Of a DNA stretch of 64,000 nt, positions 1,095 through 58,616 are shown piece after piece. Numbering within the stretch: position 1 is the stretch's first letter; the number at the start of each line of letters is the position of its first letter. Made by a program: the position numbers and the translations under genes. Source of the DNA: Candidatus Competibacter sp. (GTDB lineage: Bacteria; Pseudomonadota; Gammaproteobacteria; Competibacterales; Competibacteraceae). The stretch is from the NCBI GenBank assembly GCA_029624815.1, contig JARSSH010000060.1, positions 124,001 to 188,000 on the forward strand. Direction: 5' to 3'. Below the pieces are notes generated by a model. That model searched no databases, had not been told where the DNA came from, and saw only the letters and a program-made list of their open reading frames with translations.

Positions 1095-3034
1095 CCACCG
1101 ACATGGAGTCCACCACAGTTACATTACCTTTGGTGGATGTGATCATCCCGGTTTATCGGGGGCTGGATGAAACCCGGCATTGCCTGGAGAGTGTGCTGGC
1201 TTTCCCCCAGCAGACCGCCCATGAAATCGTGGTGATCAACGATTGCAGCCCGGAACCGGAACTGACGGTTCTTCTACGGCAGTGGGCGGCAAGCGGCGCG
1301 TTCACTCTGCTGGAAAATCCGGTCAACACCGGCTTCGTCAACGCCGTGAACCGTGGCATGGTGTTGCATCCCGATCGCGATGTGGTGCTGCTCAACAGCG
1401 ACACGGAGGTGTATGGCGACTGGCTGGATCGTTTGCGCCGCCATGCGGGTAGCGATCCGCCGATTGGAACGGTGACCCCGTTTTCCAACAATGCCACGAT
1501 TTGCAGCTATCCTCGTTTCATGCAAGACAATCCGCTTCCGGCGGACTGGCCGTTGGCCGCATTGGATGCCTTGTGTGCGAAGATCAATGCCGGGCAGTCC
1601 GTGGAGGTGCCGACCGCGGTCGGATTCTGCATGTACATTACCCGGCGTTGCCTGGACCAGGTTGGTTATTTCGACGCCACTCTGTTCGCGCGTGGCTACG
1701 GTGAGGAAAACGATTTCTCGATGCGGGCGCTGGAAATCGGATTCCGCCATCTACATGCCGCCGATGTGTTTGTTTATCATCGCGGCGGGATCTCCTTTGC
1801 TACCGAGAGCACCGATCTATCCGCGCAAGCCCAGCGCATTCTGGAGCAGCGGCATCCCCGCTATTTCCCGTTGGTCGGTGATTATTGTGCTCGCGATCCG
1901 GCCCGTTTTCTGCGGCGGCGTATCGACAACGCCCGGTTGGCGCGCTCTCCTAAACCTCGGCTGTTGTTTGTCATGCACAAGGGCGGCGGCGGCACCGAGA
2001 AACATGTGCGGGAGTTGGCGATACTGCTGGAACCGGATTATGAGGTCTTTATTTTACGGGCCTACGATACCTCAACCGCAGTGTTGGAATGGGCGCGGCG
2101 CGGGGAAGAATTCAGTGCTTGGTTTCCATTGCCGCACGCCTATCCGGACTTACTGGATTTTCTCCGACAACTGCCGGTGACCCGCATCCATTTCCATCAT
2201 GTTCTCGATCTACAGCAGCAATTGCTGCGGTTGCCCGAGGATTTGACGGTACCTTACGACTTCACCTTGCACGATTATTACCCGATTTGCCCACAATATA
2301 ATCTGGCGCGAGCAGATGGCCGCTATTGCGGCGAGCCGGACACGGTAGGCTGCACCGCCTGTTTGGCGGAGCGCCCCGCGCCTTGGGGCTTGGATATTTT
2401 GTCTTGGCGTAGCTATTTTAGGCGTTTACTGGTCGGCGCCGAGCGAATAATCGTGCCATCACGGGATATGCTGAGCCGAATGCAGCGTTATATCCCTGCG
2501 GCGCACTACCTCTGTCTTCCACATCCGGAGTTGATGTTGGATAACGTAACTGTCCCGCCATCGCTTGGTGGGGGCAGTGAGCTTAAGGTGGTCGTGTTGG
2601 GCCGACTGACTCCAGCCAAGGGATTGCATCTGCTGGAGCGTTGCGCTGGCGATGCCAGGATACGGAGACTGCCACTGTTTTTCCAAGTGATTGGCCATGC
2701 GGATCGCGAGCCACGACAGGGATCCGAGTTGCCATTGTCTTTTTCCGGGCCTTATAAGGATGAACGCCTATCGCTGCTGGTCGCTCGAGAGCGCCCTGAT
2801 GTCATTTTCTTCCCGGCACAGTGGCCGGAAACTTACTCCTATACCCTCAGCATTGCCTTGCAAACCGGATTGCCGGTCGTTGCCCCCCGATTGGGCGCTT
2901 TCATCGAGCGACTGGCGGATTACCCACAGGCCTGGTTATTAGACTGGGATACGCCCGCCGGGGTTTGGAACGATCTTTTCATGAGTCTACGGCATATTTC
3001 GGAATCAACCGAATGTCATCCACTAGATAAATAA
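1091..3034 (+). CDS. Two-domain glycosyltransferase (GT2 followed by GT4-like)
   Basis: A 647-residue protein that probably adds sugars to a surface polysaccharide in the cytoplasm. The N-terminal 260 residues are a GT-A family 2 domain: it opens with DVIIPVYRGLDETRHCLESV and has a DxD-like LLNSDTEV nucleotide-sugar site. From about residue 295 (RLLFVMHKGGGGTEKHVRE) a GT-B fold of the GT4 type begins, with VVVLGRLTPAKGLHLLE near residue 500 as the donor-binding half. The GTG start overlaps the preceding stop; an in-frame ATG lies four codons later. Such fusions usually add two consecutive residues of a repeat unit. The acceptor and sugars cannot be told from sequence. Confidence 0.85.
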   Translation: MTTDMESTTVTLPLVDVIIPVYRGLDETRHCLESVLAFPQQTAHEIVVINDCSPEPELTVLLRQWAASGAFTLLENPVNTGFVNAVNRGMVLHPDRDVVLLNSDTEVYGDWLDRLRRHAGSDPPIGTVTPFSNNATICSYPRFMQDNPLPADWPLAALDALCAKINAGQSVEVPTAVGFCMYITRRCLDQVGYFDATLFARGYGEENDFSMRALEIGFRHLHAADVFVYHRGGISFATESTDLSAQAQRILEQRHPRYFPLVGDYCARDPARFLRRRIDNARLARSPKPRLLFVMHKGGGGTEKHVRELAILLEPDYEVFILRAYDTSTAVLEWARRGEEFSAWFPLPHAYPDLLDFLRQLPVTRIHFHHVLDLQQQLLRLPEDLTVPYDFTLHDYYPICPQYNLARADGRYCGEPDTVGCTACLAERPAPWGLDILSWRSYFRRLLVGAERIIVPSRDMLSRMQRYIPAAHYLCLPHPELMLDNVTVPPSLGGGSELKVVVLGRLTPAKGLHLLERCAGDARIRRLPLFFQVIGHADREPRQGSELPLSFSGPYKDERLSLLVARERPDVIFFPAQWPETYSYTLSIALQTGLPVVAPRLGAFIERLADYPQAWLLDWDTPAGVWNDLFMSLRHISESTECHPLDK

Positions 3035-3040
3035 TTCTTC

Positions 3041-4174
3041 ATGACGGAGCGAAATTATGGTTTGGATGTGCTTCGAGCAGTAGCGATTCTACTCGTTTTG
3101 GCTTCCCATGCCATTTTTTTTATTATTCAGGCTATTCCAGAGTCCAATATTATTAAGCTGATCAGTTATTTTTGTGGTTTTTGGGGAGTGGAGCTGTTTT
3201 TTGTTCTTAGTGGATTTTTGATCGGGACAATAATTAAAAAATTGGTGGTCGCAAATTCGAGATATTGGATTTTTTCTTTCTGGATCAGGAGATGGTTTAG
3301 AACGCTTCCGTGTTATTTTTTATTCCTATTATTAAATGTGCTATGGTTTTATTATTTAAGTGGCGCACTACCTAAGGGATTGTATTATTATCCAATTTTT
3401 TCGCAAAATTTAGCTTGGGCGCATCCAGATTTTTTTCCTGAGGCTTGGAGTCTTTCGGTGGAGGAGTATTTTTATTTGGTATTTCCTCTAATAATAACAA
3501 TTCTGATAAGATGTAAAATAAAACCAGAAAATTCTTATTTGTACAGCGGGGCTTTTTTACTAATTTTTTCAACAGCGCTAAGATTTTATTATGCTTTTGT
3601 TGAGCCTTCATTAGTTTGGGATGCGGATATTAGAAAAGTTGTTGTTTTCCGGTTCGATTCACTGATGTCCGGAATATATCTGTCTTGGTTTATCGACCAT
3701 ATCCATTCTGCCAATCTGAAAAAAAATCTTTTTTTGCTGGGACTAAGCGCTTTGTCGGTATCTATGGTGGCATACTTCAGTCTCGATCATGATCGCAGCT
3801 ATTTTCTTAAGACTATCGAATTCAGCATTACGGCCATTGGGTTTGCATTGATCATACCCTGCATGCTTGATTTTCGGTTGGCCAAAAAAAATATTGTTGG
3901 TGTTTTCTTTAAGAAAACGGCACTCTGGTCATATTCAATATATCTTTCAAATTTCCTTCTTTATACTTTAACTCAAAAATTTATTTTCTCGGAATACTTT
4001 TCTGAAAACAAGTGGGATGGCGTTTTACTCTGCATCCCGGTACTGATTTTTTCATGTTATCTGGTTTCTGCTACTGTCTATAGAGCCTATGAACTGCCAG
4101 TCATGAATTTACGGGAACATATTGTTACTTGGATCTCGTATAGGATAAAAGCAACCGATCGGTGCAAGGTTTAA
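3041..4174 (+). CDS. Acyltransferase family 3 (OafA/YrhL-like) membrane protein
   Basis: A 377-residue polytopic inner-membrane protein of the acyltransferase-3 family, which O-acylates surface polysaccharides. The N-terminus has the family pattern GLDVLRAVAILLVLASHA with the catalytic-type histidine in the first membrane helix. Around residue 67 there is a 'VELFFVLSGFLIG' segment, followed by about nine more hydrophobic helices. It starts six bases after the glycosyltransferase stop, so it belongs to the same transcription unit. Its base composition is strikingly AT-rich (many tta, ttt and att codons) compared with both neighbours, which suggests recent acquisition, as is common for O-antigen modification genes. 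Confidence 0.88.
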   Translation: MTERNYGLDVLRAVAILLVLASHAIFFIIQAIPESNIIKLISYFCGFWGVELFFVLSGFLIGTIIKKLVVANSRYWIFSFWIRRWFRTLPCYFLFLLLNVLWFYYLSGALPKGLYYYPIFSQNLAWAHPDFFPEAWSLSVEEYFYLVFPLIITILIRCKIKPENSYLYSGAFLLIFSTALRFYYAFVEPSLVWDADIRKVVVFRFDSLMSGIYLSWFIDHIHSANLKKNLFLLGLSALSVSMVAYFSLDHDRSYFLKTIEFSITAIGFALIIPCMLDFRLAKKNIVGVFFKKTALWSYSIYLSNFLLYTLTQKFIFSEYFSENKWDGVLLCIPVLIFSCYLVSATVYRAYELPVMNLREHIVTWISYRIKATDRCKV

Positions 4175-21180: not shown

Positions 21181-24100
21181 CTATTTGGCGCACTCATCGG
21201 CGCAGGCCCGGTAATTTTCGTCCAGTTCCGGGCGTAGCAGGACGAGCGCCGCAATTCGGCGAGCCATGCCGCTGAACTCCAGCGCTTCATCGGTGGATAG
21301 CGGCCGGTTCAACAATTCAAACTCCCGGTAGGAGAGCCATTTTTTCAGCACTTGATAGCCGCCGAGAGTGTATTCCCACACCGGGCGCGGCAGGTTCTTC
21401 CAGTAGCAACCCGCGTTCAAATACACGTCCAACGTTTCCTCGCCCAGAGCAGGTTGTTCCAGTTCCGTGAACGGACGGCTTTCGGTTTTGCCTTTGCCGG
21501 GCATGGTGACGCCGCCCTTGCCGGCGTGGCCCCAGCCGGCGGTGAGTTTGAGATGTTCCGGGGCGAGCGGGGTGGAGTCGGCGACGGTCAGCAGGGCGAT
21601 CTTGGCCAGTTCCGGGCGCGGTTTGCCTTGAGTGACGCCGGGCAGCGGGGTTTCGGTGTCGAGCAGGGCGGTGATTTGCCGGCCCAGTTCGGCGGAGGCC
21701 AGCAACCGCTCTCGCGTGGTGGGCAGCGGGATGCGCGGCCAGTCCTGTTTCAGCGCCCCGGCGTTTTCGGTGCGATAGGCTGGGGCGTGCAGCACGGCGA
21801 CGATGTGATGAAACAGGGCCGGCGCATCGGCGTCGAGGTGGGTGAGATAAGCGGTGGTGGCGCTGCTAAGATTGGGTTGGTATTCGTCGCGATGATGAAA
21901 CGGTTTAATGTACACGGGAAAAAGGTTGGCGCCTCTTTCAATCAGATGCAGAGAGCCAAGCCACTTGGTTATCACGGGAGGATCAAAATCGCGTCGTTGT
22001 TTTTGTGCGGCAGCGATCCAAATATTTTCCGCGATGATTTGTGGGAAATATTCGCTGCGATTTCGATCCAGCAATTTGGTTTCGGATTCCCAGTAAAGCC
22101 AACGAATATCGAAGGGTCGATAAGCATAACGGACGATATTTTCGGGCCGGAATCCACGTTTTTGCAGCAATGCCCGTGTCTGTTGAGGGTCAAAGCCACT
22201 AGTCTTTTCCATCAAGCTTGGCGCAATCCGGCGCATCTCTTCATCGCTAACCTTCGGATCGAAATACTGCCGCATCCGCTGTTCCAACGCCGCGCGGTCG
22301 ATGTCCACCAAGGCATCGTCGCGGCTGGTTTTCACGCCGGGGAAGGAGGCCGGAAGCAAATCCGGCAAGAGCGGCCAAGCGAGATAATGGGCTTGCACCT
22401 GCATCGGCATGAACGGCAGGCCCAATTCCAGCGGCGGTTGCAACGATTGGTAATGCAGCGCTGTTGGCGGGTCGAGGCTTTTCAGTAAATCCTCGCGCTT
22501 GGATTTCCCCCAGCAGTGACGAAAATGGAGGAGGGGACTGCTGTTTTTCGGATTCCTCGCCAGCAAGGCAATCGCGGTTCCGACCTGGATGCCTTCCAGG
22601 TTGAAATCGGTGGAAAACACGCTGGGATCGGGCAGACCTTCGGGCGTGAGCTTGCCGGTTTTGTATTTGTCGCCGTTCAGGCAATCGATCCAAATCCGAT
22701 CGAACTTCTCCAGATAGCGTTCCCGCATTCCGGTGAACGACAGCCCATCCAACCAGGAATAATTGGAGATGAAGCAGATCACACCGCGCCCGCTGTGCTC
22801 GACGATGTGTCGCTCCGCCATCCGGTAAAACCGCACGTACAGATCGTTCAAACCCTGACCTTGCGGGGGTGGCGCGCGGCGGGTCTGGCGGTAGGCGCGG
22901 GTCAATTCCTGTTCCTCGTCGATCGCCACCCCGGCGAAGCCGTTGTACGGCGGATTGCCCAGAATTACCAGAATCCGCCGCTCCTGCTTTACCGCCCGCG
23001 CCGCGCTGTTCTCGGCCATCAATTCCGGGAAGTTGAGCGCCAGTTGCGCCATGCGCTTTTTGCCGTCCTCGTCCGGCGGCTGCCAGCCGGTCAACGCATT
23101 GGTCAGATACACGCCCAGCCGTTCCGTCCGCCCGGTCGCTTCGTCCAAAAGCAGCGCCGCGCCCCACTGATGCAGCAACAAACCCAATTGCAGATGCGCC
23201 ACCACATACGGCGCGGGCAACAGTTCGAAGCCAAACACCCGCGCCAGCGCCGCCTGTTTCAGCCTGGCCCCGGCCGCATCGCCCAAGCCTTGTTCATCCA
23301 GCCGCGCCTTGATCTGCCGCAACACCTCGGTCAAATACGCGCCGGTCCCGCAACAGGGATCGAGCACGAGCACATTCGGATCGGCCAGCCCGTCGGCGAT
23401 ATCCAATTCCTCCCGCAACACCGTGTCCACCCGCGCCACCATGTAGCGGACGATTTCCGGCGGCGTGTACCACACGCCCAATTGCTTGCGCAGTTCCGGG
23501 TCGAAGGCGTGCAGGAACGGCTCGTAGAAATACTGCACCGCGCCGGCGGCCGCGAACTGACCGAAAAACGCCGCGCGATCCACCCGGTTCAATACATCGT
23601 TGACCCGATCCAGCACCTCGGCCAAGCCCAGCGGCAACAATCGCGACGGTTGCGACAATTGCTCGAACAGGGCGCGGATCATCGGCACCCGCAGCGTCCA
23701 GCTCGCCAGCCTCCAGTCGAACCGCCTGCTCCCCTCGCCCTCTGGGAGAGGGGCTGGGGGTGAGGGCCGAGGGGAGCAAGGCGCGGTTTCCTGATGCCAC
23801 AGCACCCAGGCCGAAAACACCCCATAGAACAAGGTCTGAATCAATGTGGAGCGGAAAAAATGCTCGCCGTCCTCGGCCTCGAAACGCAGACCCAGCGCGT
23901 TTTCCAACGCCCCGCGCAGCGTCGCCAGCGCCGGCAAATCCGGCTTGTCCGCCAGCCGGGTTCGCGCATCGCGAGCATACGAGGCGAGGAACCAGGCCAC
24001 GTCGCGAGGATTGTTCAGCGGCGCGGCGCACAGCAACGCCCGCTGGAGAAATTCCAGCAGTCGTTCGCCGTGAGTCCGGGCGAAGGCGCGCGGCTGTTGC

Positions 24101-24561
24101 AGCCGGAACCAGAAATCCTCCGCCGAATCGGCCAGCCGCAGCGTTTCCAGCACTATCGGCCGACCGGTGCGATCTTCGCCGACCAGCAGAAAATCCCGGT
24201 AGTTGGCGACCAGCACCAACCGATATTTCTCCCAATATTTCCCCACCTGCGCGCCCGCGGCGGTCAGCCAACCATCCTCCGCCACGCTTTTGACCTCGAC
24301 CACGCCGCGTTCCGGCAACTGTCCCGGCAGTGGTTCGGACGCGCCCTTGGAAAACTGGCTGGCGGTGTACAAACCGGCATCCGGATTGCCGGCTCCGGTA
24401 TTTTTCAATTGCGACACCGCCAGCACGCGGGGTTTCAAAGTCTGCCCGACCGCGTTCAACAGGTTGATCAGCGCCGGGTAGTAGGAGGTTTCCCGCACGC
24501 CACCGCCGGTGGCGCGGATCTCGGTCAGAGCGGCGAAGTAGGCTTCGGCGGGAGATGGCAT
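21181..24561 (-). CDS. Single-polypeptide restriction-modification enzyme (Type IIG / Type ISP-like)
   Basis: An 1126-residue protein combining nuclease and adenine methyltransferase. The N-terminus carries a PD-(D/E)XK-like site (P60-D61 ... E89-V-K91, in GVVEVKSV). The methyltransferase has motif I VLDPCCGTGAYLTEVL and motif IV ILGNPPYNG. The C-terminal 450 residues resemble the Type ISP C-terminal region, which includes target recognition (RPFDIRWLYWE). No helicase motor is seen, unlike LlaBIII-type enzymes, so I favour a IIG-like enzyme. A palindromic repeat is inserted in frame near residue 265. No separate specificity subunit is nearby. It starts 233 bases from rpsL, divergently. Confidence 0.85.
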   Translation of the reverse strand: MPSPAEAYFAALTEIRATGGGVRETSYYPALINLLNAVGQTLKPRVLAVSQLKNTGAGNPDAGLYTASQFSKGASEPLPGQLPERGVVEVKSVAEDGWLTAAGAQVGKYWEKYRLVLVANYRDFLLVGEDRTGRPIVLETLRLADSAEDFWFRLQQPRAFARTHGERLLEFLQRALLCAAPLNNPRDVAWFLASYARDARTRLADKPDLPALATLRGALENALGLRFEAEDGEHFFRSTLIQTLFYGVFSAWVLWHQETAPCSPRPSPPAPLPEGEGSRRFDWRLASWTLRVPMIRALFEQLSQPSRLLPLGLAEVLDRVNDVLNRVDRAAFFGQFAAAGAVQYFYEPFLHAFDPELRKQLGVWYTPPEIVRYMVARVDTVLREELDIADGLADPNVLVLDPCCGTGAYLTEVLRQIKARLDEQGLGDAAGARLKQAALARVFGFELLPAPYVVAHLQLGLLLHQWGAALLLDEATGRTERLGVYLTNALTGWQPPDEDGKKRMAQLALNFPELMAENSAARAVKQERRILVILGNPPYNGFAGVAIDEEQELTRAYRQTRRAPPPQGQGLNDLYVRFYRMAERHIVEHSGRGVICFISNYSWLDGLSFTGMRERYLEKFDRIWIDCLNGDKYKTGKLTPEGLPDPSVFSTDFNLEGIQVGTAIALLARNPKNSSPLLHFRHCWGKSKREDLLKSLDPPTALHYQSLQPPLELGLPFMPMQVQAHYLAWPLLPDLLPASFPGVKTSRDDALVDIDRAALEQRMRQYFDPKVSDEEMRRIAPSLMEKTSGFDPQQTRALLQKRGFRPENIVRYAYRPFDIRWLYWESETKLLDRNRSEYFPQIIAENIWIAAAQKQRRDFDPPVITKWLGSLHLIERGANLFPVYIKPFHHRDEYQPNLSSATTAYLTHLDADAPALFHHIVAVLHAPAYRTENAGALKQDWPRIPLPTTRERLLASAELGRQITALLDTETPLPGVTQGKPRPELAKIALLTVADSTPLAPEHLKLTAGWGHAGKGGVTMPGKGKTESRPFTELEQPALGEETLDVYLNAGCYWKNLPRPVWEYTLGGYQVLKKWLSYREFELLNRPLSTDEALEFSGMARRIAALVLLRPELDENYRACADECAK
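23730..23775. repeat. Palindromic REP-like element inside the restriction-modification gene
   Basis: The outer arms tcccctcg (23730-23737) and cgagggga (23768-23775) are complementary. Inside, CCCTCT-GGG-AGAGGG forms a second hairpin, followed by a G-rich run (gctgggggtgaggg). On the coding strand it is read in frame as PSPPAPLPEGEG, a peptide typical of this class of bacterial repeat. It lies in a linker before the methyltransferase core. Confidence 0.75.
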
Positions 24562-49268: not shown

Positions 49269-50144
49269 TCAAATCGTGCGCTGCGCGGCGGTGGCTAGCC
49301 CCAGGCGTTCGCAGATTGCCAGCGTCGGCCCGGCTTGATTCATCGTGTAGAAATGCAGGCCCGGCGCGCCCCCGTCCAACAGGCGCTGGCATAGGTCGGT
49401 GACTACATCCAAGCCAAAAGTACGGATCGCATCGCGGTCATCGCCATGGCTTTCCAGCCGCTTGCGAATCCAGCGCGGAATTTCCGCGCCACAGTTGTCC
49501 GAGAATCGGGCCAGTTGGGTGAAATTGGTGATTGGCATGATGCCGGGTACGATGGGTAAATCCAGCCCCAGTTTCTCGCAATCGTCCACAAAGCGGAAAT
49601 AGGATTCTGCATTGTAGAAGTACTGAGTGATGGCCCCGTTGGCGCCAGCTTTGACTTTACGTTTGAAATTCAGCAAGTCATGCTCGATGTTCAAGGCTTG
49701 CGGATGGAATTCCGGATAGGCGGCGACTTCGATGTGGAAGTGGTCGCCGGTTTCGGCGCGGATGAATGCCACCAATTCGTTGGCGTAGCGGAATTCGCCG
49801 AATTCGCGCATCCCGGACGGCAAATCGCCCCGCAAGGCGACGAGGCGGTGGATGCCCTGAGCGCGGTAGTGATCCAAAATCTCCCGAATTCCCGTGCGGG
49901 TCGAAGCCACGCAAGTTAGGTGCGGCGCGGCGTCCACGCCGCTGTGGGCCTGAATTGCCTGGATTGCCTGGAAGGTGCGTTCGCGAGTGGAGCCGCCGGC
50001 GCCGTAGGTGACCGAGAAGAACGCCGGTCGCATCCGCATCAGCGCTTCGCGGGCGGCGAACAACTTGTGCATCCCTTCATCAGTGTTGGGGGGAAAGAAT
50101 TCGCAACTGAATACAGGAGGGTGTAGTTGAGATTGCATATTCAT
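49269..50144 (-). CDS. metF: 5,10-methylenetetrahydrofolate reductase
   Basis: A 291-residue FAD enzyme that reduces 5,10-methylene-THF to 5-methyl-THF, supplying the methyl group for methionine. VFSCEFFPPNTDEGMHKLF has the catalytic glutamate; FSVTYGAGGSTRERTFQAI and GIMPITNFTQLARFSDNCGA are family marks. In many proteobacteria metF directly follows metK-ahcY; here five foreign genes intervene. No clear ribosome site precedes its ATG, and the cassette's last gene stops 13 bases before it, so it may rely on read-through and coupling. An ATG two codons further in is possible. Confidence 0.96.
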   Translation of the reverse strand: MNMQSQLHPPVFSCEFFPPNTDEGMHKLFAAREALMRMRPAFFSVTYGAGGSTRERTFQAIQAIQAHSGVDAAPHLTCVASTRTGIREILDHYRAQGIHRLVALRGDLPSGMREFGEFRYANELVAFIRAETGDHFHIEVAAYPEFHPQALNIEHDLLNFKRKVKAGANGAITQYFYNAESYFRFVDDCEKLGLDLPIVPGIMPITNFTQLARFSDNCGAEIPRWIRKRLESHGDDRDAIRTFGLDVVTDLCQRLLDGGAPGLHFYTMNQAGPTLAICERLGLATAAQRTI

Positions 50145-50157
50145 TCAGTCAGTAGAG

Positions 50158-51021
50158 TTAACTTGAAGTTTTGAAGCTATCTAAGTGGTTAGAAATTTCT
50201 AAAGGAACCCTTTTGTTTCTTTTGATTGCAGCGGCAAGATGAAATCGAATTTCATGGCTAATATTATGCTGTCGCTTGATGCGGCTTAACAATGCTTTTC
50301 CACAAATGATTCGTAATAGCTTATCCAGCCGTTCCTCATTAGATGTACCGGGGGTATCGAATGCTTGCACTTTGGCTATATTAATTAGGTAATCTTGCTG
50401 GCAATTAATATATTTTTGAAATCGCTGTTGTATATCTTTGTCTACCCAATTTTTGTCATTGCTATTTGTAAAACCGTCAGTAAATCCCTTTATCCGCTCG
50501 TTATGACAAGCGGCATTGCCAGCTGCGTGGAGAGTTAGTACATCACAATGCTCTAGTAGCTCTTTAACGACATCCTGAGTGCTACGCGGCTTTCTTCCGA
50601 TATGATTTGCTAAATATTCCTCAATCGCTTGAGAATCAACCAAGTAGTTCTCCAACTCCCAACGATTGAGTACCTTGATATAAGGCCCGAAAGGCATGGC
50701 TTGTGCAAAACGAGAATTATCGGTTTCCCAAACCAAGTACCAGTGATCATCCGCCATCACAATATCTCTGTCGACAATGCCGAAAGACTTGATACCGTTA
50801 GTGCGGTCATGGTTGACGCTTTCCCGGACCGCTTGGCATCCTCCATAAGTTGCAGCTCCCTTATTAGCCGGTTTAAACAAAAACTCCATAAGACGATCTC
50901 CAAACCAAATATTGCTATAAATATTATTGTCATCACTAGATTCAAGGTAAACGATTATTTGCCCTGCATAGCGATTGAACAGTGACTCGCTGTCCGAGAG
51001 GTTATTTTTCAGATTCCCCAT
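50158..51021 (-). CDS. DUF4435 / TOPRIM-like protein, putative nuclease effector
   Basis: A 287-residue protein. Candidate TOPRIM metal-site residues are E27 (IIVYLESSDD) and D84/D86 (GIVDRDIVM), followed by the DUF4435 hallmark LNRWELENYLVD at 118-129. In the PARIS defence system a DUF4435 protein (AriB) is released by its ATPase partner and acts as the effector. The gene overlaps the ATPase gene by 20 bases. It is strongly AT-rich compared with metF. Similarity to AriB is by motif and arrangement only; it could also be an OLD-type nuclease subunit. It is the last gene of the inserted cassette. Confidence 0.75.
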   Translation of the reverse strand: MGNLKNNLSDSESLFNRYAGQIIVYLESSDDNNIYSNIWFGDRLMEFLFKPANKGAATYGGCQAVRESVNHDRTNGIKSFGIVDRDIVMADDHWYLVWETDNSRFAQAMPFGPYIKVLNRWELENYLVDSQAIEEYLANHIGRKPRSTQDVVKELLEHCDVLTLHAAGNAACHNERIKGFTDGFTNSNDKNWVDKDIQQRFQKYINCQQDYLINIAKVQAFDTPGTSNEERLDKLLRIICGKALLSRIKRQHNISHEIRFHLAAAIKRNKRVPLEISNHLDSFKTSS

Positions 51022-52213
51022 TGTCTATACTCCGTGCTTCTGCAACGATACGCCCCGCTTTCTCTTCTTCTTCTGGTGTTTCGATGATATGTCCGCCTTT
51101 GCGTAGATTCTCTTCAACTAATTCGAGAGCGAAAGCCTTCATGATCTCGTAGGCGTGGCTAGTGACGATAATAGTTAAGCTAGGATAGTATTCTTTTGCC
51201 AGTTTCTTGAGGTCATAAAGTAATCGATACCGCCATTGAGTATGAAGATGCACGTCGACTTCGTCAATCAATAACAGCGTATTTCGAGTCATGTGCGCGC
51301 CGATGCGTAGAAACATCTGAACTAGGCTCTTTTCTCCGCTGCTCAATCGATCAAGGCGGTGTTCATAATTTTCAGTAACGATGACGGCTTCTGGCGGATC
51401 CTTACGCACACCTTTCAAATAGGTGCTAGATCCATGGAATACACGTTGGTTTACAATCTTAACCGCTTTATCGAAGCGACCATCATCCAACCATTTAAGC
51501 CAAATCAACAAATTGTCTAAAGACTCATTCCATACGCGACCTTCTACAGCAAAGTTATGCACTGGATAGTAACCCCAACCTTTTGGGGTAGTGATAGAGC
51601 GTTCCATGTCTCGCACCGGTATGATGTCACGGTAAGCCGAAAAATAGAGCAGTGTAGGGTAAGTCAATGGATCGCCTTCAAAAATTTGCTGGCGTTCTCC
51701 GATACCGTAGCCAATCAGCGCGGTGAAATCCTTTATCCATTCACTGCTAATACCAATGGCTTCCATACGACCAGAAGCTAAACGGCGGAAACCACCACGC
51801 TGCCAAACACTAGCTCCAATACGCTTTAGATCGCTTTCACCCCAAGCCCGCAAGGCAGTATCTTCTCCCAAACGGCCTGCCAGCAACGAAAGCAAGACAG
51901 TTTCCTTGCGGCCATTGTGGTTCAGCTTGACCCGAATATCCCATTGTGCCCGACCAGAACCATGATCCAAATCTTCAAAGCCAAACTCATCTAATTCGGT
52001 TTGACCGAGCATATTCATCATGGCGACTAAAATTTCTAAAACTGTAGTTTTGCCGCGTCCGTTTTTGGATACCATCAAAAACAGATTACAAGGCTCATCT
52101 TCAGCATCAGTAAAATCAAACTCTTCTAATCGATACTGAAAGGGACCAATACGATCCAAGGTAAGGCGAATCGGGGCGAACTCTTCTATGAGGGTATTTT
52201 CTATCACTGCCAC
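51002..52213 (-). CDS. ABC-type AAA ATPase (AAA_15/AAA_21-like), partner of the DUF4435 protein
   Basis: A 403-residue soluble SMC/ABC-like ATPase. Walker A is SKNGRGKT at residues 49-56, the signature is LSSGEKS at 290-296, Walker B is TLLLIDEVDVHLHTQWRYR from 312, and the switch histidine is in IIVTSHAYEI. Walker A starts with serine where glycine or alanine is usual. No coiled-coil arm is evident, so it is the compact type found in PARIS AriA and OLD-like systems. The GTG start lies two bases from the stop of the preceding FtsK-fusion gene. It probably senses a trigger and controls the TOPRIM partner. Confidence 0.85.
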   Translation of the reverse strand: MAVIENTLIEEFAPIRLTLDRIGPFQYRLEEFDFTDAEDEPCNLFLMVSKNGRGKTTVLEILVAMMNMLGQTELDEFGFEDLDHGSGRAQWDIRVKLNHNGRKETVLLSLLAGRLGEDTALRAWGESDLKRIGASVWQRGGFRRLASGRMEAIGISSEWIKDFTALIGYGIGERQQIFEGDPLTYPTLLYFSAYRDIIPVRDMERSITTPKGWGYYPVHNFAVEGRVWNESLDNLLIWLKWLDDGRFDKAVKIVNQRVFHGSSTYLKGVRKDPPEAVIVTENYEHRLDRLSSGEKSLVQMFLRIGAHMTRNTLLLIDEVDVHLHTQWRYRLLYDLKKLAKEYYPSLTIIVTSHAYEIMKAFALELVEENLRKGGHIIETPEEEEKAGRIVAEARSIDNGESEK

Positions 52214-52214
52214 A

Positions 52215-53726
52215 TCACGTTCTCCCCTTTACAGTTTTTACAGCCAGCGCGATGTCGTCTATCGTGACGTAAACGCCATGTACCCGTTTGATGGGTTGTC
52301 CAATAAGGCGAACCAACATGTCACCACGCCCCAGCAAAAGTTCAGCGCCATGATCATCAAGGATGATGCGCGATTCAGAGGCTTTCTGAACAGTGAGGGC
52401 AATACGTGAGGGAATATTACTGCGTAAAAGCCCGCTGAATGTTTCAGCATCGGGGCGTTGAGTAGCCAGTACCAGATGAATGCCTGCTGATCGAGCTTTT
52501 TGCGCCAGTCTGACCAATAAAGATTCGATCTCTTCATTCTGCATCACCAAGTCAGCCATTTCTTCAACAAAAATAACGATGCGGGGTAGGTTTAATCGGT
52601 GTGAGCGTCGCGCTTCGTCTATATCACGGACGCCAGCTTTGACTAACTGTTCTTCCCTGATTCCCATTTCAGCCACTAAATGACCCAGGATTTCCGCAGC
52701 ATCGCCAGCATTGGTTACAACCTGATTGGCGTAAAGGTGTGGAATACCTTGATAGCTGTTGAATTCCACTCGCTTGGGATCGATCAAGCAGACTTGTAAA
52801 TCAGCGGGTGAGCAACTATGCAACAATGAGATCAGTAGTGCATGAAGAGTAACGCTTTTGCCACTACCAGTAGTGCCACCTACTAATAGATGAGGGGCTT
52901 CAGCCAGATCAAAGTCAAATGGATCGCCCATAACATCCACGCCTGGATAAACCGGCAATCGCCACTCAGAATTACGGTTTTGCAACCAAGTACGCAACTC
53001 TGCTCCAGAAAAACGCTGCCAAGCTTCAGATGAGCGGGGAATATCCAAGTTCATGGTTCTCGACTCGTCAGTACCAGAACTTAACGCTCCTTGGTTGCCA
53101 AGGCCCAAAATAAAACCCAGTTTTTGCAACCCTTTATTAAGACGGTCGCGGTCATTAACATCGGCTAGATAGAGTCGGTAGCGGGTCAGCCGCGCTCCTT
53201 CCTGGATTTGTCGTATTTCTGCTTGAACACCGATGTCACGTAAGGCGCTCTCAATACTGGACTGGTCTAGCGGTTTATCACTAATCGTTTGTGCAGACTG
53301 GCGCAGATCGGAAAGTAATTCCTGGTATAAATATTCGTGAAAATCGTGAGATTCCCTCCAAGATGTGGCGAATTCGCGTAAACCTCGACGGATATGGCGT
53401 TGCAGATACTTTGCATAACGCTCGTCATCACCGAACAGGTTTTCATTGTGATAGACGCTTAACAATGCGCAGAATAGATCAGTAAAGTCTTCTGGTTGAG
53501 CTTTATTATCTTGGCCGGTAAGCTGCTCGAAACTGTATTCACTACCAATTGAATCCCTTCGATCCAGACCCTCGTCTGGTGGTGTGGAAAACTTTAATGA
53601 ACGGGTCAGTGCTAGACGTAGTATAGGCCACTTTGGAGTAGAGGTTGATGTACGTAAGCCCAGGCCTTTATTCTGTATGCGTTTGATAATTTCTTCATCG
53701 CTAGCACTGGTGTAAACTTTGGCCAT
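52215..53726 (-). CDS. DndE-like domain fused to an FtsK/HerA-type DNA translocase
   Basis: A 503-residue protein. Residues about 25-125 (RTSTSTPKWPILRLALTRSL, then GSEYSFEQLTGQ, then KYLQRHIRRGLREF) follow the pattern of DndE, the small nicked-DNA-binding protein of the phosphorothioation complex. From about 255 an FtsK motor follows: Walker A GGTTGSGKSVT (283-293), IDPKRVEFNSYQGIPHL, Walker B RIVIFVEEMADLVM (382-395), ATQRPDAETFSGLLRSNIPS and LDDHGAELLLGRGDML. No membrane segments or gamma domain are present. It lies two bases after dndD. The DndE match is by eye and needs profile confirmation; the FtsK call is firm. Confidence 0.8.
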   Translation of the reverse strand: MAKVYTSASDEEIIKRIQNKGLGLRTSTSTPKWPILRLALTRSLKFSTPPDEGLDRRDSIGSEYSFEQLTGQDNKAQPEDFTDLFCALLSVYHNENLFGDDERYAKYLQRHIRRGLREFATSWRESHDFHEYLYQELLSDLRQSAQTISDKPLDQSSIESALRDIGVQAEIRQIQEGARLTRYRLYLADVNDRDRLNKGLQKLGFILGLGNQGALSSGTDESRTMNLDIPRSSEAWQRFSGAELRTWLQNRNSEWRLPVYPGVDVMGDPFDFDLAEAPHLLVGGTTGSGKSVTLHALLISLLHSCSPADLQVCLIDPKRVEFNSYQGIPHLYANQVVTNAGDAAEILGHLVAEMGIREEQLVKAGVRDIDEARRSHRLNLPRIVIFVEEMADLVMQNEEIESLLVRLAQKARSAGIHLVLATQRPDAETFSGLLRSNIPSRIALTVQKASESRIILDDHGAELLLGRGDMLVRLIGQPIKRVHGVYVTIDDIALAVKTVKGRT

Positions 53727-53728
53727 TA

Positions 53729-55765
53729 TTACGCTACCTTGGAAAACAGTGATTCGCGTAATGGGTTGGTATTTTCACCACTTGCATTGGCTAATCGGTA
53801 TTCACAGTACACATGAGGTTTGAGGATTTGATATTTTTCATGATCAAGCTCGGAATCAGTAGGTAAAATAATGACTTGATCACCTGCGTTGGGGTAATAG
53901 CGAGTTAATAAATTGATCTGATGTTCGCGGTCAATCCGAGCTAATGGAGTATCAATAACCACTGGAACTGATCTACCAGAGACATCCTTTAACGCCCACA
54001 GCAAAGCGGTAGCAATAAGCTGTTTCATTCCAGAAGACATACTTGCCATACCTACCGGTTCATCACTGGCGTTCAAGTAATGAAGATCGAATGATTCTCC
54101 AACTTTAATATGCGTAATTTGATGATGAGATGTCATTAATTCTGCAAACCGCCGGTTAATAGCTTCTTCAATATCCTTGCGGCGACGCGATTTAAGCTCT
54201 TGCTTATAAGATCGAAATAGGCGCTGTAAGGTTGTAGCAAGATCGACTCTTTTCTGACGCTCTCGATCCAACTGGATTGCAGACTCCTGTTGTTTTATTT
54301 CCTGTTGTTTATTATCAATCGCACGTTCTTTTTCTTGTTGCTCCTTTTTTAAATCGCGCAGTCGATCTCGCAACGTATCACGTTGTTGCTCAAGTTCGGT
54401 ATTTTGTTCTTGTCGAGCTTGATAAGCACGTTGCTCGTCACCCGAAAGGCTACTCATGTCATCTAACTTACTCTGAATACCTTCCAAGTCTCGCTTAAGC
54501 TGGCTAATTTGGCGTAAATCGTCGATAGCTCGCTGTCGCTGGTTATCAGCCAGTTGATAGTAATTGAGACGTTTCATTAGGTGGGCAGCTAGAGTTGGGT
54601 CCAGTCGCATTAAACCATCACTTATATCTTCAGGATCGCTTTCATAAGAGCGAAGAATACGTAAAAGTTTTTTACGATAGAACTCTCGTTGCTGTTGGCT
54701 GAGTGGCAACTGATAATGAGGTGGCTCATCCAGAAGACGTACAGGAAGAGCGTTCAATAAAACCTGAACCTCCTGTGCCAAACCGCCAGCCTGGCTATCA
54801 GTGAGCCTACGTAGATCCGTTGCAGCTTTGCTAACCAATCCAGGATTAAAAAGCAGAGGCGCATCAATGGGTAGACGGTTAGCAAGATCGGAGCTTGTAG
54901 TTTCTAACTGTTCTGAAATACGCTGCTTATCATTCTTATATATTGCCTCGTTACGCTGATGTACAAAAGCCTGTTGATTTTCCAAATAACGCCGATTTCG
55001 ACTGATACTTTTTTCCAAAATGGTAAGCTCTTCACTCAATTCATCAATTTTCTGGCTAAACTCCTTTTGTTCCGCTTGCAGTAAATTCAAACTTCCTTGT
55101 AGTGCAACCCGTTGTGTTTCTAGGTTGGATTCTGATTTTTCCCGACGCCAAGCGGTAACGGTTTTTCCTATATATTCTTCCAGCACATCAATGTCGGCAA
55201 TATCAAGAATTTTCTCGACCTGTGCTAACTGGCCTTCCCGATTGGCTTCAGCGAGTCGTTGTACCTGCTCACCGTCGTAAAAGAAAAACGAGATGAAGTC
55301 CTTAGGTAGCCGTCGCTCCAGAAAATCATCCGCTTCATCATCTTCTAAAGGGTCAGCGAAGTCTAGCGTAACTCTCAGAACGTCTTCACAGCCACCGCGA
55401 CCGTCCAAACGCCAACGACGCTGTGCGGTTACCTTACCCTCGGGTTCACGCCAATCAATGGAAATGCCAAATTCCGTTTGGCCTTCACGCCGCGCTTGGC
55501 GATTGAATATACCTAACCACTCATCGCCCATGCCTAGCAGATAGTTCATTACGCTTGGCTTTCGACCCACCTGAAGCGCAGACCGTAAACTTTCATGGGG
55601 TCCGAGAAACAGGAGTTTCAAGCTGTTGATGAAGCTCGTCTTGCCGAAACCGTTACGCCCCCCAATCAATACAACGTTACGTCCATCGTTAGGCAGCGTC
55701 AGATCGAATATCTGTTCACCGTAATACGAAAACAAATTATGGATGCGAATCTGTTCAAAGATCAT
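53729..55765 (-). CDS. dndD: DNA phosphorothioation protein DndD (SMC-like ATPase)
   Basis: A 678-residue SMC/Rad50-like ATPase of the phosphorothioate-modification complex. MIFEQIRIHNLFSYYGEQIF and Walker A GGRNGFGKTSF (35-45) open the protein. SFFFYDGEQVQRLAEA is typical of DndD. Two long coiled-coil arms (about 190-270 and 415-515) flank a hinge. The C-terminal half has the signature MASMSSGMKQLIATALLWAL and Walker B VPVVIDTPLARID. I chose the ATG giving MIFEQIRI, which overlaps the dndC stop by 11 bases; the upstream frame extension reads over dndC and is not coding. Confidence 0.9.
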   Translation of the reverse strand: MIFEQIRIHNLFSYYGEQIFDLTLPNDGRNVVLIGGRNGFGKTSFINSLKLLFLGPHESLRSALQVGRKPSVMNYLLGMGDEWLGIFNRQARREGQTEFGISIDWREPEGKVTAQRRWRLDGRGGCEDVLRVTLDFADPLEDDEADDFLERRLPKDFISFFFYDGEQVQRLAEANREGQLAQVEKILDIADIDVLEEYIGKTVTAWRREKSESNLETQRVALQGSLNLLQAEQKEFSQKIDELSEELTILEKSISRNRRYLENQQAFVHQRNEAIYKNDKQRISEQLETTSSDLANRLPIDAPLLFNPGLVSKAATDLRRLTDSQAGGLAQEVQVLLNALPVRLLDEPPHYQLPLSQQQREFYRKKLLRILRSYESDPEDISDGLMRLDPTLAAHLMKRLNYYQLADNQRQRAIDDLRQISQLKRDLEGIQSKLDDMSSLSGDEQRAYQARQEQNTELEQQRDTLRDRLRDLKKEQQEKERAIDNKQQEIKQQESAIQLDRERQKRVDLATTLQRLFRSYKQELKSRRRKDIEEAINRRFAELMTSHHQITHIKVGESFDLHYLNASDEPVGMASMSSGMKQLIATALLWALKDVSGRSVPVVIDTPLARIDREHQINLLTRYYPNAGDQVIILPTDSELDHEKYQILKPHVYCEYRLANASGENTNPLRESLFSKVA

Positions 55766-57098
55766 CGGCCGGATCAGCCTTGTATGCCTGTTTGACTGCT
55801 TTATCGATGAGATCACGGACGGCGGTTTGTAGACCGGACTTAGCACCGTGTTTATCCAAAGAAGGAAACTGGTCACGCACCAAGCGTAACAATTCTTTTG
55901 GTAAATCAGGATGAACATCACTTTCTACTGCCAGTCGCTCCAGTAAATCCTCATCCGCAGGTATATCAGCAGTGGATTTTTTCATCATGTTGATCTCCCT
56001 GCCGTAACGAATTGTTAACTGATAGGCAGTTTGAGAAAAATCGAAGTCTTTAGTCCATTGTTCTTGAATATAGACTAAATCTTCGTCAGAGATTAACTCA
56101 AAATTTACATCCCGCTCTTTTTCCAGAAGGCGTTCGAGAATGATTTTACGTGCTTCGGGAGTAAATGGGCCGGGGCCAGTAGTATTATCGCGCCGTACTG
56201 AACTACGGTAGCGCGTATCTTCACGAATTTGCTTGAGCCAATCACGAAACTCGCTGAGTGGTTTCATCCAGGTTTCGCCGGATTCAATGAAGCCCTGCAT
56301 GGATTTGTCCTGTTTGACTACTGTACAAGTCCAGCAGCCAAAGCGGCTGCCGCCACAGGATGGAGTATTCAAATCTAATACGACAGGGCACTCGCCGCCA
56401 CTGGCCTGCCGGTAAAGTTCCAGCATGTAATTGTGATTACCACCCCACGGCGGAGAGTTGTGGGTAAATAGATATTCCCAGACCTCATCAGTGCTCCAGT
56501 CCGCGATTGGCGTCATCACCAAAGCATTAGGAATCTCGTGATGCGGATTCAGTTGCCTGTCATTACCTTCCCTAGCTTGCATGCGTGTGCGGCGGCTATC
56601 GCTCTCATCCAAACGAGTACCAAGCAACAGGATAACGCTACCATACTGCCGGGTAATCTCGTCTATGGCACGGCGCGAAGGCTTGATTTTCATATTGCTG
56701 GTGCACCATCGAAACCAGCGGGTAGGGGATGGGTAACCCTTACCTATGAGATTACCCCAAAAGCTTTCTTTGGCAGTGGGTTTGACTAAGCGAACGCTTA
56801 ATGTCAAACCACGAGTAAGTGAGTCGCTCTCAATAAGTTTCAGTGTGTGTTCGATGTATTTCGAAATGTTCGGAGCTTCAACCCGAGTATCCGAGGAGAT
56901 CACGAAAACAGACTTTCTGGCTCGGCTCTCAAGTTGCAGCAGCATTTCATATACCAACTGCAACACGAGAGTCGAGTCTTTACCGCCAGAATAGGCCACT
57001 ACCCAAGGACGGTCATCGGCCAGGAATTGCTTGATGAGCAATTCCAACGTGGATGTCCCTAAGCTTGGCTGTAAAACATCCGTGCGGATGGCTTCCAT
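55755..57098 (-). CDS. dndC: DNA phosphorothioation protein DndC (PP-loop sulfurtransferase)
   Basis: A 447-residue PAPS-reductase-like ATP pyrophosphatase that activates and transfers sulphur to the DNA backbone. The PP-loop is VVAYSGGKDSTLVLQL (SGGKDS 37-42). FRWCTSNMKIKPSRR (C132) and the cluster C237, C248, GSRFGCWTCTVVKQ (C255, C258) are DndC hallmarks and candidate [4Fe-4S] ligands. VWEYLFTHNSPPWGG is also typical. The ATG overlaps the ahcY stop (TAATG). No dndA or dndB is present, so sulphur would come from a housekeeping cysteine desulfurase. Base usage is AT-richer than ahcY. Confidence 0.92.
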   Translation of the reverse strand: MEAIRTDVLQPSLGTSTLELLIKQFLADDRPWVVAYSGGKDSTLVLQLVYEMLLQLESRARKSVFVISSDTRVEAPNISKYIEHTLKLIESDSLTRGLTLSVRLVKPTAKESFWGNLIGKGYPSPTRWFRWCTSNMKIKPSRRAIDEITRQYGSVILLLGTRLDESDSRRTRMQAREGNDRQLNPHHEIPNALVMTPIADWSTDEVWEYLFTHNSPPWGGNHNYMLELYRQASGGECPVVLDLNTPSCGGSRFGCWTCTVVKQDKSMQGFIESGETWMKPLSEFRDWLKQIREDTRYRSSVRRDNTTGPGPFTPEARKIILERLLEKERDVNFELISDEDLVYIQEQWTKDFDFSQTAYQLTIRYGREINMMKKSTADIPADEDLLERLAVESDVHPDLPKELLRLVRDQFPSLDKHGAKSGLQTAVRDLIDKAVKQAYKADPADDL

Positions 57099-58516
57099 TA
57101 ATAGCGATAATTCTCCGCCTTATACGGTCCATCTACCGCGACGCCAATATACGCAGCCTGCTCCGGCGTGAGCGTGGTCAGTCTGGCGCCGATCCGATCC
57201 AAATGCAGCCGGGCCACCTTTTCGTCCAGATGCTTGGGCAGCACGTAGACTTTGTTTTCGTACTGACCGCCACGAGTGAACAGCTCGATCTGCGCCAGCA
57301 CCTGATTGGTGAAGGAGTTGGACATCACGAAGCTGGGGTGGCCGGTGGCGCAGCCCAAGTTCACCAGACGCCCCTCGGCCAGCAGGATAATGCGCTTGCC
57401 GTCGGGGAAAATGATGTGATCCACCTGCGGCTTGATGTTTTCCCAGCGATGCTGCCTGAGGTTGGCCACTTCGATTTCGGAATCGAAATGGCCGATGTTG
57501 CAGACGATGGCCTGATTTTTCATCCGTGCCATGTGATTGTGAGCGATGACGCCGACATTACCGGTGGCGGTGACAAAAATGTCGGCCTTGTCCGCCGCGT
57601 CGTCCATCGTGACCACCCGATAACCCTCCATCGCCGCCTGCAGGGCGCAAATCGGGTCGATTTCGGTGATCCACACCGTCGCGCCCAAGCCTTTAAGCGA
57701 CTGCGCGCAGCCCTTGCCCACGTCGCCGTAGCCCAGCACCACCGCGATCTTGCCGGCGATCATCACATCGGTGGCGCGCTTGATGCCGTCCACCAGCGAT
57801 TCGCGGCAACCGTAGAGATTATCGAACTTGGATTTGGTGACCGAGTCGTTGACGTTGATGGCGGGGAAGGGCAGCCGGCCCTCTTTCTCCATCGTGTACA
57901 GACGATGGACGCCGGTCGTCGTCTCCTCGGTCACCCCCTTGATATTCGCCTGGATCTTTGAGTACCAACCGGGTTGGCTTTCCAACCGTTTGCCGATGGC
58001 GGCAAACAGAACCTGCTCTTCCTCGCAGCTTGGATTGGCAATCAGCGAGCGGTCCCGTTCCGCCCGGACGCCGAGCGTGACCAGCAAAGTCGCGTCGCCG
58101 CCATCGTCCAGGATCATGTTCGGCGTGCCGCCGTCGTGCCATTCCAGGATGCGATGCGTAAAATCCCAGTACTCGTCCAGCGATTCGCCCTTGTAGGCGA
58201 ACACCGGAATGCCGTCGGCGGCGATGGCGGCGGCGGCGTGATCCTGAGTCGAGAAAATGTTGCAAGAGGCCCAGCGCACGTCCGCGCCCAGTTCGGCCAG
58301 GGTTTCGATCAGAACGGCGGTCTGGATGGTCATGTGCAGCGAGCCGGCGATGCGGGCGCCCTTGAGCGGCTGCCGGTCCCGGTATTCGGCCCGGATCGCC
58401 ATCAGGCCGGGCATCTCGGTTTCGGCGATGGCGATTTCCTTGCGGCCCCAGTCCGCCAGGGCGATATCGGCGACATGAAAGTCAACGGTGGTTTTTTCGC
58501 GCACGACGGCGTTCAT
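57098..58516 (-). CDS. ahcY: S-adenosylhomocysteinase
   Basis: A 472-residue NAD-containing hydrolase that splits S-adenosylhomocysteine into adenosine and homocysteine, removing the inhibitor of methyltransferases. [63 protein letters not shown] (NAD site) and the C-terminal KAENYRY are all present. The ATG giving [17 protein letters not shown] has GGAG eight bases upstream. An SAH riboswitch precedes it; metK is upstream. The stop overlaps the dndC start. Confidence 0.98.
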
Positions 58517-58616
58517 AACGTACACTCCATACGGTTTTGAACGGGCGCGGTTGGCTGGTGAAAACCGTGCCATGCCAAGCCTGACGGCAAAAACCGTTGC
58601 AGCGCCCCTTGGCATG
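58517..58616 (-). promoter_or_regulatory. S-adenosylhomocysteine (SAH) riboswitch
   Basis: On the minus strand the aptamer has a 9-bp P1 (catgccaag at 58571-58579 with its complement at 58608-58616), the conserved GGGGCGCTGCAACGG and the closing CGTCAGGCTTGG, matching the SAH riboswitch consensus. The platform is striking. ACGGTTTT occurs once in the aptamer (58590-58597) and once after it (58561-58568). Both copies are complementary to AAAACCGT (58531-58538), two bases before the ribosome-site region (GGAG 58525-58528). SAH would favour the aptamer and turn ahcY on. Confidence 0.9.

Follow-up and report, generated by a model that had tools for sequence, protein, structure and literature searches.

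Does a predicted protein that joins a DndE-like domain to an FtsK/HerA-type motor serve DNA phosphorothioation, the surveillance of modified DNA or both, and with which partners might it act? The question is raised by a dndE:ftsK fusion gene in the window, i.e. the whole 64,000-nucleotide stretch of Candidatus Competibacter sp. DNA that was analysed. The gene lies at 52215..53726 on the minus strand and encodes 503 aa from an ATG start with no internal stop. These coordinates, given by a sequence-only reading of the same DNA, are exact; the functional unit, however, is the operon at 57098-50158 (minus strand), whose five genes (dndC, dndD, dndE:ftsK, an OLD-type ABC ATPase gene and a DUF4435 Toprim-like gene) overlap or are spaced by no more than 2 nt.

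Residues 1-122 of the fusion (53361..53726, minus strand) form a true DndE domain. Pfam DndE (PF08870) matched residues 6-120 (E value 6.8e-8, 33.2 bits, curated cut-off 25) and separately matched 29/30 homologous N-termini, while a profile built from the 30 N-termini returned archaeal DndE from the PDB (7x4e, E value 2.2e-6) and no other convincing PDB match. The AlphaFold model of residues 1-150 (AF2, 30 sequences; pLDDT 89, pTM 0.84) displays two strand-helix-helix units with long helices after them at the C-terminus, in line with the DndE fold of two ribbon-helix-helix units. Its best 13 Foldseek matches in the PDB were all DndE chains (7x4e, 4lrv and 5wtu; 7x4e: E value 7e-4, target TM 0.70), and the next, far weaker, matches were F-plasmid relaxosome chains; DndE is likened to TraY of that relaxosome in a published analysis (PMC10853773). 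A chance match is ruled out, since profile, homologues and structure concur. The DndE-like N-terminus claimed in the sequence-only reading was therefore borne out both by PF08870 and by a model that clearly resembles no PDB fold other than solved DndE structures. The NCBIfam DndE equivalog TIGR03184 gave a marginal match (15.8 bits against a cut-off of 71.85, E value 0.014), and since this score falls so far under the cut-off, we regard the DndE half as a divergent member of the DndE superfamily rather than the classical stand-alone equivalog.

The FtsK alpha and beta (motor) domains occupy residues 156-503 (52215..53261, minus strand), with homology spanning residues ~156-498 (phmmer to P. 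aeruginosa FtsK 2iuu, E value 4.5e-59; Pfam FtsK_SpoIIIE, E value 2.3e-45). The Walker A, Walker B/catalytic Glu, sensor Gln and arginine finger region are intact in 35/35 aligned fusions, with the Walker B Asp replaced by Glu in the window fusion and many relatives. The earlier description of a complete FtsK motor holds for the alpha/beta portion, but gamma (KOPS-reading) and transmembrane domains were not found in the fusion, which ends with the beta domain at its C-terminus and begins with DndE. The fusion shares the alpha+beta translocase motor with cellular FtsK; it differs in having no membrane or gamma domain, in carrying DndE at its N-terminus and in its phylogenetic position, with 31 fusion motors forming one group apart from 23 other FtsK proteins (100/100). 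It is an FtsK-family motor and not a cellular FtsK. A sequencing error or assembly accident is ruled out as the origin of the fusion by 35 homologues of the same architecture, mostly from unrelated genomes.

A DndE-FtsK fusion is by itself already known. Rakesh, Aravind and Krishnan 2024 (PMC10853773), who cite Krishnan et al. 2020, describe as clade-3 the HerA/FtsK domains that are joined to DndE and lie next to DndD, and so the fusion alone is not new. The published proteins and ours have in common the fusion, an adjoining DndD-related ABC ATPase and phosphorothioation neighbourhoods.

What, then, does the operon supply around it? The first gene, dndC (55755..57098, minus strand), encodes a 447-aa PP-loop sulfurtransferase (TIGR03183: 369.9 bits, cut-off 290.4) with SGGKDS and CGGSRFGCWTC motifs. 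The second, dndD (53729..55765, minus strand), encodes an ABC ATPase with a coiled coil and Walker A, signature and Walker B motifs (TIGR03185: 271 bits, cut-off 245.85); we placed its start at residue 53 (ATG) of a longer ORF (55921), where the TIGR03185 match begins. Although PbeC gave its best PADLOC score, a CxC/PbeC-type ATPase was ruled out, as the protein has no CxxC hook and passes the TIGR03185 cut-off; given these two properties, we call it a divergent DndD. The operon holds no dndA, dndB or dndFGH and no further nuclease gene beyond the ATPase-Toprim pair. Across the host genome, the fusion is the sole DndE-family match and dndC is single-copy, so that the fusion should do the job of DndE if host DNA is phosphorothioated. 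The same genome encodes an IscS homologue (cysteine desulfurase; E value 2.4e-155, below the TIGR02006 equivalog cut-off) and returned no DndB match, and the DndH model TIGR03237 matched nothing in either this genome or the control set. Compared with canonical DndABCDE and DndFGH, the operon shares DndC, DndD and DndE homologues and an FtsK/HerA motor (DndH in the canonical case); unlike them, it has DndE fused to the motor and an OLD-ATPase/Toprim pair in place of dndA, dndB and dndFGH.

That pair, lying just downstream of the fusion, was overlooked in the sequence-only reading along with the rest of the operon, although the fold and family claims of that reading hold. The first member (51002..52213, minus strand; 403 aa, GTG start) is an OLD-type ABC ATPase, AriA/PtuA-like (AAA_21 41.7 bits, AAA_15 37.4 bits), and the second (50158..51021, minus strand; 287 aa) is an AriB-like DUF4435 Toprim-like protein (DUF4435 30.8 bits). 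All three scores lie above the published thresholds for PARIS, which call for AAA_15 of at least 32 bits or AAA_21 of at least 27 bits together with DUF4435 of at least 27 bits in neighbouring genes (PMC9122126). The ATPase matched AriA (1.1e-10), retron and PtuA ATPases about equally well; hence, the architecture and the Toprim-like partner can safely be termed PARIS-like, whereas orthology of the ATPase to AriA is less secure.

The Toprim-like protein matched PADLOC AriB at 1.2e-9, and its model (pLDDT 89.5) found AriB of two PARIS structures (8ux9_A, the best PDB match: E value 4.1e-3, probability 1.00, TM 0.51; 8v46_D: E value 3e-2, probability 1.00, TM about 0.5) and no other credible PDB fold match. 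Sequence searches of the PDB returned nothing credible, and AriB was revealed by the fold search only. Invariant acidic positions among the Toprim-like proteins include E27, D31 and D84, consistent with the AriB Toprim fold and its catalytic Glu; AriB E26A is inactive (PMC12409363). DUF4435 was detected at an E value of 0.01 or below in just 4/9 Toprim-like members.

The family is rare. Of 369 genomes of the class, five gave a match (E value 1e-10 or below), with the host as the only strong full-length match and the rest distant, some of them within stand-alone ATPase-Toprim pairs. Viral contigs searched with the ATPase profile yielded no convincing relative, plasmid relatives of the ATPase were confined to two Rhizobiales plasmids, and the Toprim-like protein alone as query found no viral or mobile carriers. 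Distant OLD-ATPase and Toprim-like pairs also stand alone within the class, with no dnd genes in the stretch examined (L132:44-1748 and L133:5280-7249). Relative to PARIS (AriA/AriB; Rousset et al. 2022, PMC9122126), the window pair is alike in its ABC ATPase and DUF4435 partner above thresholds, its AriB-like fold and its acidic Toprim positions, and unlike in being built into a Dnd operon, in forming a distinct, rare branch and in an ATPase that matches AriA, retron and PtuA proteins alike.

Is the union of fusion and pair a peculiarity of this genome? Scanning 84,980 species genomes (best 80 matches kept) and plasmids gave at least 36 fusion loci, the window included. The architecture sought elsewhere thus recurs in at least 35 homologues, and dndC adjoins the fusion wherever the contig reaches. 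In clade A (the window, L008-L014 and L037, with L009 and L037 being strains of one species), the order is dndC-dndD-dndE:ftsK-ATPase-Toprim; among the matches listed, all but L011, a clade-A fusion without the pair, carry the ATPase-Toprim genes, and the L010 contig has no sequence upstream of dndD. Clade A' comprises two plasmids (L002, which is frameshifted, and L003) and one genome (L015), all alphaproteobacterial, with the order dndA-dndC-dndD1-dndE1-small followed by dndD2-dndE:ftsK-ATPase-Toprim. Clade B (at least 24 loci) has dndC-small protein-dndD-dndE:ftsK, in some cases with TusA or DGQHR genes.

Among the matches listed, the pair follows the fusion in 11/12 clade-A/A' loci versus 0/22 clade-B loci with enough downstream sequence to be assessed. 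The 11 pair-linked loci, from several families and two phyla (alpha-, beta- and gammaproteobacteria and Desulfobacteraceae), preserve order, strand and tight spacing, and the clade-A/A' ATPases are 33-60% identical to that of the window. In the DndD tree, clade-A DndD and A' DndD2 form one group (100/100), apart from A' DndD1 and clade-B DndD, while in the DndC tree A' DndC falls with clade B (98/97); because of long branches, the deeper order should be read with caution. DndD-DndE:FtsK-ATPase-Toprim thus behaves as one module able to join up with more than one kind of DndC gene. A separate DndE was not found by BLAST in 33/36 fusion loci (in the sequence examined, among the matches listed), and since dndC adjoins the fusion wherever the contig reaches, the fusion appears to substitute for DndE. 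It coexists with a separate DndE in L002, L003 and L015, where it may for that reason serve something besides modification.

Several accessory genes accompany these operons. Most clade-B operons encode, between dndC and dndD, a conserved 'DNA modification system-associated small protein' of ~70 aa (L004:4602-4817 and equivalents), which also precedes dndD2 in A' and was not seen in clade-A operons. A TusA-family sulfur-carrier gene lies directly 3′ of the fusion in some clade-B operons (L004:8431-8667, L005:8491-8730 and L028:11431-11676), which suggests a dedicated sulfur relay to DndC. The TIGR04096 phosphorothioation-associated putative methyltransferase adjoins the operon in several relatives (L012:7068-9674, L037:13632-16214 and L016:11712-14360) and is absent beside the window operon. 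A relative in the host's family (G005) has an unrelated Dnd cluster (L135:3569-10687) of dndC, dndD, stand-alone dndE and, encoded on the other strand, a DndA-like gene.

To judge from the available literature, the conserved union of the fusion with a PARIS-like pair, split by DndD clade, is new. The main text of PMC10853773 has no mention of DUF4435 or PARIS, and its two mentions of Toprim concern other systems; the present analysis adds the split into two clades, the linkage with the ATPase-Toprim genes and the add-on arrangement of A'. Likewise, we found no description of a pairing of DndC or phosphorothioation with DUF4435 in the openly available literature. PARIS-like modules are known to be recruited by BREX (PMC12839542), and in BREX StySA an embedded ATPase and DUF4435 pair is dispensable for modification (PMC9009780), which is the closest experimental precedent. 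Such BREX loci resemble ours in placing a PARIS-like pair within a modification-based defence operon but differ in the carrier: methylation by BREX there, phosphorothioation with a DndE:FtsK motor here. The link would carry the BREX logic to phosphorothioation, giving a modification system with its own suicide switch. The DndD tree also yields a simple rule that annotation tools could use: clade-A-type DndD goes with the ATPase-Toprim pair.

On balance, we lean towards a self-contained phosphorothioation operon in which the fusion and DndD read DNA, the motor tracks along it and the pair acts as a PARIS-like backup. DndC would make the sulfur transfer, with sulfur probably drawn from housekeeping IscS. 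DndD and DndE:FtsK would form a DNA-reading complex, with site recognition contributed by the double ribbon-helix-helix domain of DndE and ATP-driven movement on duplex DNA by the FtsK ring, presumably hexameric, and through this tracking, sites would be located, marked and/or checked. The OLD-ATPase would keep the Toprim nuclease inactive until phage DNA or an anti-restriction factor disturbs the first layer; the nuclease, once released, would then cause abortive infection. Computation establishes the domain identities, intact motifs, operon structure, conserved linkage and acquired origin, and from these we infer phosphorothioation, hexameric translocation by the fusion, nuclease activity, the trigger and any physical coupling between the fusion and the pair.

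We would assign the fusion primarily to the modification/scanning side, a role favoured because clade B has the fusion, dndC and dndD without the pair. The sequence-only reading had coupled target reading to translocation, which would follow naturally from the architecture, and had further proposed that the fusion could bridge modification and restriction. A motor whose closest PADLOC model is that of SspH (2.9e-56) would fit such a bridging role, but with an effector encoded downstream, the fusion need not itself provide the bridge. With its DNA-reading subunit covalently joined to a processive motor, the fusion is a direct candidate for distance-based scanning, which one 503-aa protein would suffice to test, and its pairing with the downstream genes would make the reading of sparse sulfur marks along DNA testable. 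In one genome studied, few of the available sites bear phosphorothioates, and how self DNA avoids attack where it lacks marks is treated as an open question (PMC11662687).

A possible, if doubtful, alternative places the fusion, like DndH/SspH, on the side of surveillance and restriction: together with its own DndD, it would patrol DNA, stop at marks made by DndC and a DndE, and trigger the effector on unmarked DNA. The SspH match is consistent with this, as is the phylogeny in PMC10853773, which joins DndE-fused motors and some DndH motors in one clade. The A' loci (L002, L003 and L015) point the same way, holding complete dndACDE beside dndD2-dndE:ftsK-ATPase-Toprim, with DndD2 grouping with clade-A DndD and not with DndD1. 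However, no second DndE was seen in clade A, the host genome has a single DndE match, and the clade-B loci encode DndC, DndD and the fusion with no pair, so that the fusion there should serve modification. In a further reading, which we consider unlikely, the ATPase-Toprim pair would be gated by the DndE:FtsK motor acting as sensor: a mark-reading patrol of the duplex would be reset at phosphorothioate sites, and a long unmarked run or a blocked motor would lead to abortive infection. Were this so, one machine would write, read by distance and kill, which would explain the tolerance of partially modified genomes.

We think it improbable that the pair is the restriction nuclease itself (OLD/Gabija-like), cutting unmodified phage DNA brought by DndE:FtsK, instead of a suicide effector that cuts tRNA. 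In other OLD systems, Toprim nucleases do target DNA (discussed in PMC12409363) and the operon encodes no other nuclease; nevertheless, the nearest fold is that of AriB, a tRNA cleaver (PMC12409363), and clade B, among the matches listed, keeps the motor and modification genes yet has no pair. An ordinary defence island, with a Dnd operon placed by chance before an independent, functionally unlinked PARIS-like system, is very hard to credit: distant stand-alone pairs do occur (L132 and L133) and PARIS works without a modification system that it might guard (PMC9122126), but order, strand and tight spacing are kept in the 11 linked loci (among the matches listed) across several families and two phyla, and the DndD clade split tracks the presence of the pair.

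The self-contained operon that we favour was horizontally acquired, as shown by its low GC (0.455) and GC3 (0.38-0.49) against a GC3 of 0.71-0.80 in its neighbours. These neighbours are the host genes ahcY on the left (57098..58516, minus strand) and metF on the right (49269..50144, minus strand), which adjoin each other in relatives without the operon: metF directly follows ahcY in four congeners, with spacers of 113-312 nt, and in further family members. In the host, the operon replaces this spacer, with the dndC ATG overlapping the ahcY stop (TAATG) and the metF start lying 13 nt past the Toprim-like gene. A comparison of the two junctions revealed no common 6-11-base word that would indicate repeats at the insertion site. 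An SAH riboswitch (58536..58616, minus strand; Rfam RF01057, 56.8 bits) lies upstream of ahcY, and the operon is downstream of it on the same strand; because of this riboswitch, the operon may be transcribed by read-through from ahcY under SAH control.

Elsewhere in the window, a second defence gene (21181-24561, minus strand) codes for a Type ISP restriction-modification enzyme of 1126 aa (Type_ISP_C 165 bits, N6_Mtase). A further low-GC stretch (0.455) at 2001-4174 carries an acyltransferase gene (PF01757) after glycosyltransferase and ABC export genes and is probably a variable surface-polysaccharide region.
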